Shown: in pieces, positions 22,856 to 63,280 of the stretch
Layout: each line of letters opens with the position of its first letter
Numbering within the stretch: position 1 is the first letter of the stretch
Notes under the pieces: model-generated
Told to the model about the DNA's origin: nothing
What the model saw: only the letters and a program-made list of their open reading frames with translations
Database searches by the model: none
Translations under genes and position numbers: made by a program
Assembly: GCF_016865525.2 (NCBI RefSeq)
Contig: NZ_CP075169.1
Span: 3,286,337-3,350,336, forward strand
Source: Sodalis ligni
GTDB taxonomy: Bacteria > Pseudomonadota > Gammaproteobacteria > Enterobacterales > Enterobacteriaceae
Reading direction: 5' to 3'
Length of the DNA: 64,000 nt

Positions 22856-23118
22856 GTGTCTTTCCGCTGAAAAGCTTTGCCGAGAAGAATAGAATCCCAA
22901 GACCGAAGGGGAGGCTTATAAACTGCCCGTCGTTGTAGGGAATTGTGACAATCAAATGACTATTTTGCCAATAATAAGCATGATCAATCGTCAGATTTTA
23001 ATGAACTTGTGGCAAAATACCTTATTAACGGATTTTCGCGTATCACTTTGCGCCACGCTGGTCAAACAGCAAGATAATAAGTAGGATGCGCGTCAGTATT
23101 TCGGTTTTGGAGAGTAAA

Positions 23119-23706
23119 ATGCAGCTTAAACGTGTGGCAGAGGCCAAACTGCCGACACCCTGGGGCGACTTTCTGATGGTGGGTTTTGAAGAGATAGCCA
23201 CAGGACACGACCATCTGGCGCTGGTGTTCGGTGATATTACCGGCGTGGAGCCGGTGCTGGCGCGGGTGCACTCGGAGTGCCTGACCGGTGATGCCCTGTT
23301 TAGCCTGCGATGCGACTGTGGATTCCAGCTCGAAGCCGCCTTAACGCATATCGCCGAGGAAGGCCGGGGGATTTTACTGTATCACCGCCAGGAAGGCCGG
23401 AATATCGGGTTGCTGAATAAAATCCGCGCCTACGCGCTGCAGGATAAAGGGGCCGATACGGTGGAAGCCAATCATCAGCTGGGGTTTGCCGCAGATGAGC
23501 GGGATTTCACCCTATGCGCCGATATGTTCAAGCTGCTGGGCGTGGACTCCATCCGTCTGCTCACCAATAATCCGCAGAAGGTGGAGATTCTCACCGAGGC
23601 GGGCATTCATATCATCGAACGCGTCCCGCTGATCGTCGGCCGCAATCCGAAGAATGAACGCTATCTCAATACCAAAGCGACCAAAATGGGCCATTTGCTG
23701 GATTAG
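23119..23706 (+). CDS. ribA: GTP cyclohydrolase II
   Basis: First step of riboflavin synthesis, opening GTP to a diaminopyrimidine phosphate. The 195-residue protein has the zinc ligands in [18 protein letters not shown], the catalytic [15 protein letters not shown] and [10 protein letters not shown]. Start at 23119 chosen for GGAGAG; an in-frame ATG at 23086 is too far upstream for the family. The hairpin at 23761-23794 follows. Confidence 0.95.
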
Positions 23707-23760
23707 TAATCCTTCATTATGACTTGCCGTACTGCGGCCTGATTGTCTGACGTCAGCCAC

Positions 23761-23794
23761 AATGGGGAATCCCTGTTTTCGGGGATTTCCCATT
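23761..23794 (+). terminator. Hairpin downstream of ribA
   Basis: A 13-bp stem (23761-23773 with 23782-23794, one G-U) starts about 55 bases after the ribA stop. No T tract follows, so it is a weak terminator or an mRNA-stabilising hairpin. Confidence 0.5.
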
Positions 23795-23884
23795 GGCATC
23801 GATGCTAAATATTGCCATTCATGATTTTTCAGGATTTACTAATCCCTTTTATTTTCAATCGTTATGAAGAGCTAAAAATAGCAA

Positions 23885-24142
23885 TTGCTATTGTATTGTA
23901 AAACCTTTAGTGTTAATACAAGAATCATTATCGGATTTAACACTAAGACGGTCGTTCACCAGCAAGGATTATTGCATCGTGCCTTATCAATCTTGATATT
24001 CAACCGTGACGGCGAGTTGTTGTTGCAACAGCGCTTGGGAAATATTATTCAACGGGTTTATGGACTGATAGCTGTTGTGGGCATCCACATCATAATGAGT
24101 TGCCGCTTACATATGGGTAAGCCCATTAGAATTAGCCCATGA
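23885..24142 (+). pseudogene. idi: Isopentenyl-diphosphate isomerase remnant
   Basis: A fragment of type 1 IPP isomerase, which makes dimethylallyl diphosphate for prenyl chains. The readable piece is IIGFNTKTVVHQQGLLHRAL, then LSILIFNRDGELLLQQR. After a frameshift near 24040 the other frame continues STGLWTDSCCGHPHHNELPL, the Cys/His metal-binding core, and then meets stops. The rest of the enzyme is missing. It is followed on the same strand by a methyltransferase and a terpene cyclase, so it was probably the precursor-supply gene of a terpenoid cluster, as sodA is in the sodorifen locus of Serratia plymuthica. Real decay: several independent lesions. Confidence 0.8.
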
Positions 24143-24267
24143 GTTTCGAAATAATTATATGCTGGCAATATCCTGGACCTACTGGCAAAACAGGATGCTC
24201 CGGCGATCTCTCTTGTTAACAGCGTCCTTCATGACACCTCGTTGGTCCAGGTGCCCAGGAGAAGATA

Positions 24268-25229
24268 ATGAACGATTCAAATAACCTCAAGTTTACCGAT
24301 ATCCAGTTTAACCCGACGACGCCATATCAAGTTATCCGGGGAAAGACTGTCAATAGTTATGAAGAAAAGTGGTTCAAACCTATTGTGAAGATCCGGAGCA
24401 TTGGCGCAAGGCGATCGGTGATTTATTACTATTCCAGTTTGGCGTTTATGACGATCCCGCCTCGAAGCCGCCGATCTCGCTGGATGAATCCGGTATACGT
24501 TATTTCGAGCGTCAGCTATTGCTGGCCGGCTTGGAAGAACGCATTGAACGCCCCGCCATTCGGCGTATTTTGGATATCGGCTGCGGCTGGGGTTACATCC
24601 TGAAATACCTGGCGCAACATTTCCCCGAGTGCGCACGGTTGGACGGGATCAATGTCAGCGAACAGCAACTGCGCCATTGCGCTGCCTTTTATAGCAAACA
24701 GGGGCTTTCCGATCGTATAAATCTCTATCTCTGCAACGCTCAGGATGTGGATTGTTTGCCTGATCCGCAGGAGACTTACGACCTGGTGATTATCCGCGGC
24801 GTGATTTCCCATTTTCCCAATGACCTATACGAACAGGCAATGCGTGCCTTGTTCAAGCGCGTCAGTCCGGGTGGCCGGGTCATCATTTCAGATAATCTCT
24901 ACAATATCGATCCGGGGGATTATGAGTCCGATACCCCCGATATAATCGATCGTCTCGCCTGCCGGCACCGTAAAACCCCGGCCTATTTCTGCCAGGTGCT
25001 TAAAGACAGTGGTTTTTCCGTAAAAGATCTGCGCGTTTTACCGTCCAACATCGATGTCGCTCATTGGCTGATGGATTCCAAAGCCAATATCGAGCGTAAT
25101 TTCCCCGCGAATGCAGGCGGCGCACTGGAGGAATTAAGGGTATTGGCTGAAAACTGGTCCGTTGCCCTGATGAAAACAAAGTATCCACTTATAGCGTCAT
25201 TGCCACCCGAGCGTTTTAGTCCATGCTGA
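24268..25229 (+). pseudogene. SAM-dependent (prenyl-diphosphate C-) methyltransferase, one frameshift
   Basis: A class I methyltransferase of about 320 residues. The start at 24268 has a GGAGAAG site. The first 36 codons end EEKWFK, then one missing A in the run at 24376-24378 shifts the frame; restored reading gives [12 protein letters not shown] and runs to 25229. The SAM-binding motif [17 protein letters not shown] and the later [15 protein letters not shown] are intact. Its place between an idi remnant and a terpene cyclase matches the SodC-type farnesyl-diphosphate methyltransferases of C16 terpenoid loci (or geranyl-diphosphate methyltransferases of 2-methylisoborneol loci). The single A-run lesion could be a sequencing error, so the enzyme may be alive. 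Confidence 0.75.
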
Positions 25230-25368
25230 AAGCCGACAAGGCGAGCTTTTCACCTGTTTCGGCACACACAATCCCTTGAGAAGAGCGGGGCTCATTTCTC
25301 ATGTTTCATCGGCGTATTTCATCTTTTTGCGCTGTTTTATTCCGAAATACTTTATACGGAGAAGGTTC

Positions 25369-26443
25369 ATGAAAACAGAAATCATTCCCCTCTATATTGG
25401 CCCTTTGCCATTAAAGCCCATGAGCAAATCGAAGAATTCAATGTAAGTTCGGTGGAATTTATGGTTCGTTTTCACCTCTATGACGGTAAGGAACAACGAG
25501 AACGACTTAGTCTTGCGCGATGTGGCGGCGGTTTAACCGGTTTATTATATCCATCCGGACCTGCCGAGCTACATCAAATTGCCGGAGATTGGTCTATGTT
25601 CGTGTTTGCTTTTGATGATTACTATTGCGATGAGGGTCCCCTTAGAGGTGACCCAGAGGATTGATAACTGCCATAGCCAAAATGCATAGAGCAATTGAAG
25701 GATATGAATTCACAGACGATACCTATGATAACTACATACTCGCGTTACGTGATACCAGACTAAGACTGGAACAATGTGCTCCCGGCGAATTGGTTTATCA
25801 ATGGGTAGATGCACTGAAAAATTGGTTATTTATAGAGGTGTATAAAGCCCAAAATATCGCTAAGGGATTGAAACCCGGTTTAAGCGAAGGTGCGCATATC
25901 CGTCTGCAGAGCGGCGGCGGTTTTCCATACATTGCGCTGATACCCATTGTTCGTCAAATACCCATATCTTTACACGATCTCGCCAATCGGCGTATTCGCG
26001 CCCTTGCTGAAATGTCCAATATGATTGTCAATTGGGGAAGTGAAATTTATTCATGCCACAAAGAAATAGTGCGATCCAACGACCATCATGACTTGATTGA
26101 AATTGTAGGGAATGCTTATGGCTGCAACCGGCAGGATGCGCTGAAAATTTACATTCAAATGTATGAAAAGATAGTCAAACGATTTATCGAATTATACGAA
26201 GAAGTTAAATTATCCAGCAACGATCCCGTGATCGGTTGCTACCTGGATGCGTTGATTGATTACGCCGGTGGCGGACTTTATTTTACTCAAAAGTCCCCAC
26301 GCTATATTTTTACCGATAACGATGAAAGTCAAAGATATTATATCGAGGAGGGATTTAAACGCACCCCGACAGAGACAGCCAGGGACTTTGACTTGATTCC
26401 TTCACTGGCCTGGTGGTGGCACGTCGGCAATGAACGAATGTAA
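25369..26443 (+). pseudogene. Class I terpene cyclase, two frameshifts
   Basis: A bacterial-type class I terpene synthase of about 358 residues if repaired. The ATG at 25369 follows GGAGAAGG. A base is missing in the C run at 25387-25390 (restored IIPPLYWPFAIKAHEQ, the usual N-terminal PPLY motif) and another near 25655-25660. The aspartate-rich metal motif is FDDYYCDE and the second metal motif (NSE type) is about residues NWGSEIYSCHKE. The C-terminus is intact to 26443. The DDYYCDE form resembles cyclases that use methylated prenyl diphosphates (2-methylisoborneol and sodorifen-type). It follows the methyltransferase by 140 bases on the same strand. Product cannot be told from sequence. Confidence 0.75.
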
Positions 26444-26512
26444 GTATCCTCAACACCCGAGTCGCGGACCTCTCCTGCGCCCTATGTCCGAACGGAGACA
26501 GAACGTTAAAAG

Positions 26513-26535
26513 TTCCCTCCGGCATGCGGAGGGAA
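26513..26535 (-). terminator. acnA terminator
   Basis: A perfect 9-bp stem (26513-26521 with 26527-26535) with a 5-base loop, followed on the minus strand by TTTT, 13 bases beyond the acnA stop. Confidence 0.8.
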
Positions 26536-26547
26536 ATGCCAGAAACA

Positions 26548-29219
26548 TTACAGCATCTTGCGGATCACGTAGTTCAAAATGCCGTCATGCTGGTAATAGG
26601 TAAGCTCATTGCCGGTATCGATACGGCAGCGGGTCATCACCTGCTCGCTGCGGCCATCGGCATAGTCGATGGTCACCGCCACCGTCTGGCCGGGAGCCAG
26701 CTCGCCCAGGCCGCCGATGCTGATACGCTCATCCCCCTTCAGCCGCAGCGATTGCCGGGTCACGCCGGCCGGGAATTCCAGCGGCAGAATCCCCATGCCA
26801 ATCAAATTCGAACGGTGAATACGTTCGAAGGTTTCGGCAATCACTACCCGGATGCCCAGCAGCCGCGGGCCCTTCGCGGCCCAATCCCGGCTGGAGCCGG
26901 AACCGTACTCTTTACCGGCAATAACCGCCAGCGGCACCTGTTCCCGTTGGTAGCGCATGGCAGCATCGTAAATCGGCATCTCATCGCCGGACGGATAGTG
27001 ACGGGTTATCCCCCCTTCCACACCCGGCACCATTTCGTTCCGGATCCGGATATTGGCAAAGGTGCCGCGCGCCATCACTTCGTAGTTGCCGCGCCGGGAT
27101 CCGTAGGAATTGAAATTTCCCGCTTCCACGCCGTTTTCCCGCAGATAATGTCCCGCCGGGCTGTCCGCTTTGATATTGCCCGCCGGGGAGATATGGTCGG
27201 TGGTTACCGAATCGCCGAGCAACGCCAGAATACGGGCGCCGCGGATATTTTCCACCGGTTCGGGCTGGTGCTGCATAGCGTCAAAGAACGGCGTCAGGCG
27301 GATATAGGTGGAGTCTTCCTGCCAGTGGTAAGTGGGGGTGCGGTTGACCTCGATCTCCTGCCAGTCCCGATTGCCGTTGAAAATAGCGCTGTATTCCTTA
27401 TGGAACATGGCGCTGTTCACCAGGCTCACCGAATCGGCGATTTCCGCCGAACTCGGCCAGATGTCCTTGAGATACACCGGCTGCCCGCCGGCGTCGGTAC
27501 CCAGCGGATCGGTACTCAGATTCACCAGCATATTACCGGCCAGGGCATAGGCCACCACCAGCGGCGGCGACGCCAGCCAGTTGGTTTTCACCAGCGGATG
27601 GATACGCCCTTCAAAGTTACGGTTGCCGGACAGCACCGCTCCCACGGTCAAATCCCCGGACTTGATGGCCGCCTCGATGGGTTCCTTAAGCGGGCCGGAG
27701 TTACCGATGCAGGTGGTGCAACCGTAACCCACCAGGTTAAAACCGAGCTGATTCAGATAAGGCGTCAATCCCGCCGCCGCCAGATAATCGGTCACCACTT
27801 TGGATCCGGGGGCCAACGAGGTTTTCACCCAAGGCTTGGTCTTCAGCCCCTTTTGCACCGCGTTGCGGGCCAGCAGGCCGGCGGCCATCAGGATATTGGC
27901 ATTGGAGGTATTGGTGCAGGAGGTAATGGCGGCAATCACCACCGCCCCTTGATGCAGTTGGAAGGATTCCCCCTCCAGCTCCACGTCCTGGAAATCCGGA
28001 TGATGGGTACGCTTGGTGAAATCCAGCTCATCGCTGGCGCGGAACGCCGCCGCCACACCCGGCAACGGCACCCGGTCCTGCGGCCGTTTCGGCCCCGCCA
28101 GGCTTGCCACTACCGTTCCCATATCCAATACCAGCGTACTGGTGAAGCGCGGTTCATCCCCAGCATTGCGCCAGAGGCCCTGTGCTTTGCTATAGGCTTC
28201 CACCAGCGCTATCTGCTCTTCGCTGCGGCCGGTCAGGCGCAGATAATCCAGGCTGATGGCATCTACCGGGAAAAAGCCGCAGGTGGCGCCGTATTCCGGC
28301 GCCATATTGCCGATGGTGGCGCGATCCGCCAGGGGCAGCACGTCCAGCCCATCGCCATAAAATTCCACGAATTTACCCACCACGCCGTGTTTACGCAGCA
28401 TTTGCGTTACGGTCAGCACCAGATCGGTGGCGGTGATGCCCTCATTCAGCTTGCCGATAAGCTTAAAACCCACCACGTCCGGAATCAGCATGGATACCGG
28501 CTGGCCAAGCATGGCCGCTTCCGCTTCGATACCGCCCACGCCCCAGCCCAGCACGCCGAGGCCGTTGACCATGGTGGTATGGGAATCGGTGCCCACCAGC
28601 GTGTCGGGATAGGCTACTTCTTCACCATCCTGCTGCTCGTGCCAAACGGTTTGCGCAAGGTATTCGAGATTGACCTGATGGCAGATACCGTTTCCCGGCG
28701 GCACGACCCGGAACCGGCTGAATGCCTGCTGCCCCAGCGCAGGAATTTGTAGCGCTCGAGGTTCCTTTCCATCTCCAGATGATTGTTTTCTTCATAGGCC
28801 CCGTCGTTACCATAGCTGTCGACGGTGACGGAATGGTCGATAACCAGGTCAACCGGCGACAGGGGATTGACCTTGTTTACATCGCCGCCCAGGCGCTTTA
28901 CCGCCTCTCGCATGGCGGCCAGATCCACAACCGCCGGCACGCCGGTGAAATCCTGCATCAGCACCCGGGCCGGGCGATAGGCGATTTCACCCTCGGCATG
29001 GGCGTTTTCCAGCCAGCCGGCCACCGCTCTCAGATGCTCTTCGGTGACAATGTCACCGTCTTCGTTGCGCAGCAGGTTTTCCAGCAGCACTTTCATGGAT
29101 TTGGGCAGCGCGTCAAGATTACCCAGCGTCCGCGCAGCGTGGGGCAGGCTGAAATAGCGGTAGGTTTTATCCCCGACCGCCAGGCGTTCCTTACTGGTTT
29201 CTCGAATTGTTGACGACAT
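26548..29219 (-). pseudogene. acnA: Aconitate hydratase A, one frameshift
   Basis: Iron-sulfur aconitase of the citric acid and glyoxylate cycles, the stress-stable paralogue; also an RNA-binding post-transcriptional regulator in its apo form. The N-terminal part runs from 29219 (MSSTIRETSKERLAVG) to the shift and the rest from 28704 to 26548. The cluster cysteines in SCTNTSN and [13 protein letters not shown], the [16 protein letters not shown] active-site loop and [13 protein letters not shown] are intact. One base is missing from the run at 28732-28735; restoring it joins FLRWG to [17 protein letters not shown]. This is the only lesion seen in about 890 codons, so sequencing error is as likely as a mutation. 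Divergence and order relative to cysB are as in E. coli. Confidence 0.9.
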
Positions 29220-61287: not shown

Positions 61288-62478
61288 ATGACACTACTTA
61301 ACCCCTATTTTGGCGAATTCGGCGGCATGTACGTACCGCAAATCCTGGTACCGGCCCTCTTGCAGCTGGAAGAAGCCTTTGTCAGCGCCCAAAGCGACCC
61401 GGTATTCCAGGCTGAATTCAACGACCTGCTGACCAATTACGCCGGCCGGCCGACGCCGTTGACCCTGTGCCGCAATCTCACCGCCGGCACCAAAACCAAG
61501 CTCTATCTCAAGCGGGAAGATCTGCTTCACGGCGGCGCCCATAAAACCAACCAGGTGCTGGGCCAGGCGTTGCTGGCCAAACGCATGGGCAAAACCGAAA
61601 TCATCGCCGAAACCGGCGCCGGCCAGCATGGGGTGGCCTCCGCCCTGGCATCGGCGCTGCTGGGCCTGAAATGCCGGGTTTACATGGGCGCCAAGGATAT
61701 CGAGCGTCAGTCGCCGAACGTGTTCCGCATGAGGCTGATGGGCGCGGAAGTGATCCCGGTACACAGCGGCTCCTCCACCCTCAAGGATGCCTGTAACGAG
61801 GCCCTGCGCGACTGGTCCGGCAGCTATGAAAAAGCGCATTATATGCTGGGGACCGCCGCCGGCCCGCATCCTTATCCCACCATCGTGCGTGAATTCCAGC
61901 GCATGATAGGCGAAGAGACCAAGCAGCAAATGCGCGAGCGGGAAAGCTGCCTGCCGGATGCGGTGCTGGCCTGCGTCGGCGGCGGTTCCAACGCCATCGG
62001 CATGTTCGCCGACTTTATTGACGAACCCTCGGTACGCCTAATCGGCGTTGAACCCGGCGGCCTGGGTATCGAAACCGGACAGCACGGCGCCTCCCTCAAG
62101 CACGGCCGGCTGGGCATCTACTTCGGCATGAAATCGCCGATGATGCAGTCGTCCGATGGGCAAATCGAAGAGTCCTACTCCATATCCGCCGGCCTGGATT
62201 TCCCCTCGGTGGGGCCGCAGCACGCCTACCTCAACAGCATCGGCCGGGCGGAATATGTCTCCGTCACCGATGATGAAGCGCTGGAAGCGTTCAAAGAGTT
62301 GTCACGCCATGAAGGGATTATTCCGGCGCTGGAATCGTCCCATGCCCTGGCCCATGCTCTAAAGATGATCAGGGCGGAACCGGAGAAAGAGCAAATTCTG
62401 GTGGTGAACCTTTCCGGGCGCGGCGATAAGGATATTTTTACCGTTCACGATATTTTGAAAGCGCGAGGAGAGATCTAA
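61288..62478 (+). CDS. trpB: Tryptophan synthase beta chain
   Basis: Condenses indole with serine using pyridoxal phosphate. The 396-residue protein has the cofactor lysine in [21 protein letters not shown], the indole-side [12 protein letters not shown] and the phosphate-binding [15 protein letters not shown], all intact. Overlaps trpA by one base (TAATG). Confidence 0.97.
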
Positions 62479-63280
62479 TGGAACGCTATGAGCAGTTATT
62501 CACCGCGCTGCAAAGCCGCAAAGAGGGCGCTTTTGTGCCGTTCGTCACCCTTGGCGATCCTCCCCGCCAGTCGCTCAGCATTATCGACACGCTGATTGAG
62601 GCGGGCGCCGACGCGCTTGAGCTGGGCATCCCTTCTCCGACCCGCTGGCGGACGGTCCCACTATCCAGAACGCCAATCTGCGGGCATTTAGCGCCGGCGT
62701 CACGCCGGACCAGTGTTTCGACATGCTGGCGGCCATCCGTCGCAAATACGCCGATATTCCCATCGGACTGCTGATGTATGCCAATCTGGTGTTCAATAAA
62801 GGCATCGATACCTTTTATGCCCGTTGCGAACAGGTGGGCGTCGATTCGGTGCTGGTGGCGGACGTCCCGTTGGAAGAGAGCCTGCCGTTTCGCACCGCCG
62901 CCCTGCGGCACGGCGTGGCGCCGATTTTTATCTGTCCGCCGAACGCCGATGCGGGCCTGCTGCGTGAAATCGCCTCTCACGGCCGCGCTTATACCTACCT
63001 GCTGTCCCGCGCCGGCGTCACCGGCAGCGAAAACCGCGGCCATGTTCCCCTTGAACATCTGGTAAATACCCTCAAAGAGTATCACGGGGCGCCGGCGCTG
63101 CAGGGCTTTGGCATCGCCGAACCCGCGCAGGTGCGGGAAGCGCTGGCGGCGGGGGCCGCGGGGGCTATCTCCGGCTCGGCCATCGTAAAAATCATCGAGC
63201 GCAATACCGGCGATCCGACGGCTATGCTTGATGAACTCAGCACCTTTGTACGGGAAATGAAAGCGGCGACGCGCGGCTGA
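62478..63280 (+). pseudogene. trpA: Tryptophan synthase alpha chain, one frameshift
   Basis: Releases indole from indole-glycerol phosphate and channels it to TrpB. The start at 62478 reads [20 protein letters not shown], then PFVTLGDP with the catalytic glutamate in [12 protein letters not shown]. One C is missing at 62630-62632; restoring it gives [18 protein letters not shown] with the second catalytic residue, the aspartate. The remainder ([51 protein letters not shown]) is intact to 63280, about 268 residues in all. A single C-run lesion in an otherwise clean trp operon makes a sequencing error quite possible; if real, the cell would need external indole or tryptophan. Confidence 0.92.

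Follow-up and report, generated by a model that had tools for sequence, protein, structure and literature searches.

The interval between ribA and acnA in the window (i.e., the whole stretch of 64,000 nucleotides that we analysed) probably harbours a pseudogenised sod-type C16 homosesquiterpene locus, which would have been gained horizontally, seems to have a mosaic make-up and is broken in all three of its genes. These genes, idi (IPP isomerase), MT (methyltransferase) and TS (class I terpene cyclase), lie in that order on the + strand, as the first-pass annotation of this DNA had stated, and none of the three frames is intact in this assembly. The locus is probably a decayed, mosaic member of the known family of sod-type C16 terpene clusters, and not a new kind of system.

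The locus and its insertion site

The features of the locus and of its flanks are as follows.

23086..23706, + strand: ribA, left flank; 98% identical to a protein of the congener G002; the open reading frame ends at 23706
23707..23929, + strand: leader rich in A+T (37% G+C) that separates ribA from what is left of idi; the promoter of the insert may once have been here
23930..24099, + strand: remnant of idi (sodA-type IPP isomerase); residues 15-52 in one frame, 50-72 in another
24099..24176, + strand: possible weak trace of the C-terminal part of idi (residues ~130-155); collinear, E 0.66, not significant
24268..24369, + strand: N-terminal piece of MT (~34 residues), in a frame other than that of the main part; matches the P. 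tasmaniensis MT at E 5e-7
24366..25196, + strand: main part of MT; open frame 24369-25229, 286 amino acids
25172..25210, + strand: conserved C-terminal motif of MT (VSTYSVIA) in a third frame, after a second shift; E 0.019, in the right place
25370..25388, + strand: start of the cyclase, seen in the sequence, in a frame other than that of the part after it; alignments start at 25389-25392
25389..25658, + strand: N-terminal part of the class I cyclase with FDDYYCDEG, from alignment
25652..26443, + strand: C-terminal part of the cyclase (PF19086, E 1.9e-17) with the NSE-type region SEIYSCHKE
26548..29219, - strand: acnA, right flank; 3' end at 26548; split by a shift near 28730

Horizontal transfer would have inserted the sod-type locus between ribA and acnA in the lineage of the host, probably Sodalis ligni. 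This gap measures 2.8 kb in the window, whereas G002 has ~185 bp there and another congener, G003, ~59 bp; in G001 and G004 it holds sdaC, sdaA and a helix-turn-helix gene, as read by eye from translations (the site comparison covered G001-G004). Intact copies at this site in related genomes, as envisaged by the first-pass annotation, were not encountered: five congeners, one of which is 83% complete, gave no match to MT (E 1e-20) or to the cyclase. With the MT protein P0028 as a query (E 1e-50), a match was found in six of the 392 sampled genomes of the family, including the window's own, which was the best (89%). The search for target-site duplications and mobile-element ends returned short repeats, none of them flanking the insert, and the plasmid search with 23000-27000 gave no match. 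No word starting with "terpene" occurs in the main text of two Sodalis papers (PMC9241852 and PMC8226273), and a literature search found no publication mentioning both Sodalis and sodorifen. As a side observation, the interval differs across the genus, being occupied by the terpene locus (window 23707-26547), by sdaC-sdaA-like and helix-turn-helix genes (L091 3751-6924; L093 1025-4188; G001 and G004) or by almost nothing (G002 and G003).

The idi component survives in the window only as a remnant, so that the damage claimed in the first-pass annotation is real. Using the P. tasmaniensis Idi as a tblastn query, residues 15-52 were aligned at 23930-24043 and residues 50-72 at 24031-24099 in a different frame, and the NCBIfam model TIGR02150 matched residues 15-50 of an 85-aa open reading frame (E 6.4e-7). 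The presumed C-terminal trace scores below unrelated matches in the same search (best E 0.02); if it is real, ~57 codons between it and residue 72 were lost. A search of the stretch 24090-24290 in three frames against 34 loci gave weak matches only, one of them to the C-terminus of idi. A second idi-like gene occurs elsewhere in the window's genome, G000 (181-aa open frame, 43% identical to Photorhabdus idi).

No trace of dxs (sodB) was found in 23700-26560 at E 0.05, in agreement with the first-pass annotation, which had described the locus as lacking the DXS gene. This absence is nothing special, since intact relatives also lack the gene: in none of ten Photorhabdus loci does a dxs stand between idi and MT, and neither does P. 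fluorescens FW300-N2E3 (L018) have one there; PMC6366047 describes dxs as not crucial for sodorifen.

Family membership and apparent mosaic origin

As judged by its sequence, MT is a member of the FPP C-methyltransferase (SodC) family. It possesses Pfam methyltransferase domains, and its best structural matches are PDB 9sls (454 bits, "Methyltransferase type 12"), 9sm0 and 24uw (392 bits), the last being the sole one of the three named FPP-methyltransferase (VbFPPMT). It is 72-78% identical to the Photorhabdus copies and to the main Serratia copies, the value being 72% for P0019 of S. plymuthica (UniRef name beginning with "sodorifen biosy"). PMC7862628 lists 14 active-centre residues of SpFPPMT that could not be replaced by alanine without a strong decrease or the loss of activity. 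Thirteen of them are identical in the window, the fourteenth, E42, is replaced by D, which P. tasmaniensis also has there, and all 14 positions fall within the MT open frame. Outside the shifted ends, MT has zero substitutions at the near-invariant columns of P0002-P0120.

MT is read in three frames, i.e., with two shifts. The first-pass annotation was right about the first shift, which it placed at 24376 instead of ~24366-24369, and it missed the second, C-terminal one. The lost ends contain columns common to 117/117 and 118/118 of the relatives having a letter there, and the C-terminal piece includes two serines present in all 118 of 118 such relatives. The closest MT is P0028 (89% identity; 221 aa, on a contig of 49,666 bases), whose start is offset by one residue from that of the window's frame; as it lacks ~60 C-terminal residues, it looks broken too and is perhaps a second broken MT copy, in a relative.

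The cyclase, for its part, sits in the clade that contains SodD. Its start codon, N-terminal part and C-terminal part occupy three successive frames, which implies two shifts, near 25387 and 25655, both as given in the first-pass annotation. When the shifts are bridged, it shares 56-58% identity with the Burkholderia-type proteins closest to it (58% with L120, P0122 and P0123; the C-terminal part alone is 54-55% identical to P0122-P0124), 44% with L121 and 35% with SodD. Given the last value, sodorifen is not predicted as the former product. P0122 and P0123 are Burkholderia proteins; a near-identical relative of P0122 sits in the FPPMT cluster L120 (MT-Rieske-TS), and the 44% relative in L121 (MT-TS). 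The cyclase scored 163 bits against PDB 21ig versus 850 bits for 21ig against the SodD gene of S. plymuthica (L028). A protein search at E 1e-10, which was word-limited, gave four proteins, the window itself among them, and genome searches gave further relatives at 24-34%. A second cyclase family, PF03936, matched neither the ten genomes nor the 14 controls and is uninformative. Canonical NSE-type motifs start with an asparagine, and it is worth noting that this first residue is missing from the motif of the window (26010-26070; GSEIYSCHKE) and of its kin (GGEVYSYFKE, SSDCYSYFKE).

From these families we propose how the locus may have operated when intact. Idi would have served the balance of IPP and DMAPP; MT would have methylated and cyclised FPP into a presodorifen-type C16 diphosphate, this double activity being ascribed to SodC-type enzymes in PMC13022886; and the class I cyclase would have turned the C16 diphosphate into a C16 terpene.

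Structure matches and trees (31 MTs and 21 cyclases) bear out the sodorifen-like family of MT and cyclase, and the association with idi holds as well. In the MT tree, the window groups with P0028 (100/97), then with Photorhabdus (96/87), inside a clade of 13 otherwise made of Serratia, Morganella and Providencia (100/99). In the TS tree, it groups with P0122, P0123, P0124 and L120 (92/91), then with L121 (100/99), then with SodD and its partner, a Mesorhizobium cyclase (99/98; clade of eight). AU tests, whose groups were named after the trees were seen, rejected the union of the window MT with each of three Burkholderia MTs that stand with cyclases of this kind, those of L120 (p 2e-31), B. singularis (1e-5) and L121 (3e-10), and that of the window cyclase with its counterparts in Photorhabdus (p 2e-63) or with S. 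plymuthica SodD alone (5e-46). The G+C content is 51% in MT versus 43-46% in TS. Because the two trees place MT next to Photorhabdus and the cyclase next to Burkholderia proteins, the locus looks mosaic, apparently combining a Photorhabdus-related MT (with idi upstream, as in Photorhabdus) with a Burkholderia-type cyclase. The descent from a Serratia-type cluster by reduction, which the first-pass annotation had assumed, does not agree with these trees and AU tests; they come near to the separate origins which that annotation had named as refuting its reading. This locus indicates that MT and the cyclase were exchanged independently. An independent movement of SodD was already hinted at in print, PMC6366047 reporting that a Serratia SodD clusters with P. 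chlororaphis and that eight layouts occur among 28 clusters.

Similarly to S. plymuthica sodABCD (idi, dxs, FPPMT and cyclase), the window has the order idi-MT-TS, an MT of the same family (72%) and a cyclase of the same larger clade, but it differs from sodABCD by the lack of dxs, the cyclase subclade (Burkholderia-type, with 35% identity to SodD) and the breakage of all three genes. The Burkholderia sod-like clusters L120 and L121 possess the closest cyclases, whereas their MTs stand elsewhere in the MT tree; in L120, MT and TS are separated by a gene that looks Rieske-like by eye, and no idi match was found at E 1e-6 in 18 kb of L120 or L121. Such clusters are named for B. pyrrocinia and B. 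singularis in PMC6366047. The Photorhabdus idi-FPPMT loci provide the closest named MTs (72-78%), with idi directly upstream and no dxs, but their MT is open, no cyclase is linked to it and the chromosomal site is another one (in L004, judged by eye, next to rpoD- and dnaG-like genes). Finally, P. fluorescens FW300-N2E3 (L018) shares the order idi-MT-TS without dxs, but its frames are open and its cyclase, 28% identical in the C-terminal part, stands on the other side of the cyclase tree.

Decay, sequencing error and other readings

The main competing explanation holds that MT and the cyclase are intact, that their shifts are errors of sequencing or assembly, and that only idi was truly lost and replaced by the other idi-like gene of the genome. 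We regard it as unlikely, even if several observations speak for it. Two further genes are split in the same assembly, acnA (26548-29219; open in G001-G003) and a 268-codon gene that we take to be trpA-like (62478-63277; open in G002), so that some shifts could be assembly errors, these two genes being themselves either such errors or further pseudogenes. The MT sequence exhibits no relaxed constraint; its lack of near-invariant substitutions fits an error or a very recent breakage, and MT breakage, if real, is thus recent. The dN/dS values of the window genes versus their relatives were compromised by the saturation of dS. Against the error reading stand the destroyed idi next door and the density of shifts. 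The background was estimated from the G002 stretches, whose 62 open reading frames of 120 aa or more include 42 with a match in the window at 70% identity or more; 38 of these, covered over at least 80% (41.6 kb), were counted as orthologues and the four partial matches were left out. At most five of the 38 run in more than one frame, acnA and the trpA-like gene clearly and the other three doubtfully. With two to five background splits in 41.6 kb, the Poisson probability of finding at least four shifts in the ~2.1 kb of MT and TS is 4e-6 (two splits) to 1.4e-4 (five splits). Hence decay is likelier than sequencing error, though unproven. In addition, the cyclase is changed at four of 40 near-invariant columns (two overlapping duplicates, of L024 and L027, being omitted from the 21 cyclases), whereas its nearest kin P0122, P0124 and L120 are changed at 0/39 and the five nearest rows at 0 to 2. 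As 4 to 7 changes are seen in other cyclases of the set that are intact, this is weak evidence for decay. The first-pass annotation, which had credited MT and the cyclase with single-base shifts only, understated the damage. From its extent, we propose that decay was greatest in idi, followed by the cyclase and lastly by MT.

Two other readings appear still less probable. A truncated MT could be made from the 286-aa frame and act alone without a cyclase, as may happen in Photorhabdus, where MTs persist without a linked cyclase. This would agree with the presence of all active-site positions in that frame and with the almost identical start of P0028, but the missing ends carry the columns common to all relatives and P0028 itself looks broken, which makes a working truncated enzyme quite improbable. 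Alternatively, the three genes could be unrelated neighbours, namely a cyclopropane synthase-type MT and a cyclase that arrived separately. The generic Pfam and NCBIfam matches do include cyclopropane synthases and the two trees disagree. By contrast, the cyclopropane fatty acid synthase identity that the first-pass annotation had set against its own reading was rejected for MT (best NCBIfam score of 51.9 bits versus a cut-off of 650), and in the listed 60 of 120 matches no cyclopropane synthase scored above 36 bits, versus 454 bits for the best structure. Furthermore, idi-dxs-MT-TS in S. plymuthica, idi-MT-TS in P. fluorescens FW300-N2E3 and, in Burkholderia, an MT adjacent to a cyclase of this type argue that these genes belong together, and we consider a chance neighbourhood extremely improbable. 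The preferred reading thus remains a decayed, mosaic sod-type locus. With it, a Sodalis of deadwood would probably join the bacteria that once had a C16 homoterpene pathway, the locus being a snapshot of the loss of this pathway.

Methyltransferases without a linked cyclase

In all ten Photorhabdus loci compared (L004-L010 and L012-L014), an idi match lies upstream of a 314-codon MT devoid of internal stops (the L006 idi being covered from residue 36 only), with no trace of a cyclase or of dxs at E 0.01. The median dN/dS of these MTs is 0.113 (45 pairs). Nine of the genomes were searched (all but that of L009): two have an unbroken, unlinked SodD-type cyclase, one has a C-terminal cyclase fragment with a stop, one shows a 23-residue match close to where a contig ends, perhaps a remnant, perhaps a gene cut off there, and the other five gave no cyclase at E 0.01. 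Thus, on comparative grounds, the Photorhabdus MT seems to outlive the cyclase, a situation for which the literature search found no publication, and the comparison suggests that MT may be useful without a cyclase. We tentatively put forward, as a possibility that we do not favour over its contrary, that a SodC-type MT can be the business end of the pathway alone: idi-FPPMT would be kept (in Photorhabdus, and perhaps in Sodalis before the decay) while partner cyclases come and go, the C16 diphosphate or alcohol being itself the product or being fed to a further enzyme.

As a last observation, in B. territorii, whose genome gave no match to the window cyclase at E 1e-5, a second MT, 41% identical, adjoins the first (L016 10075-10905).
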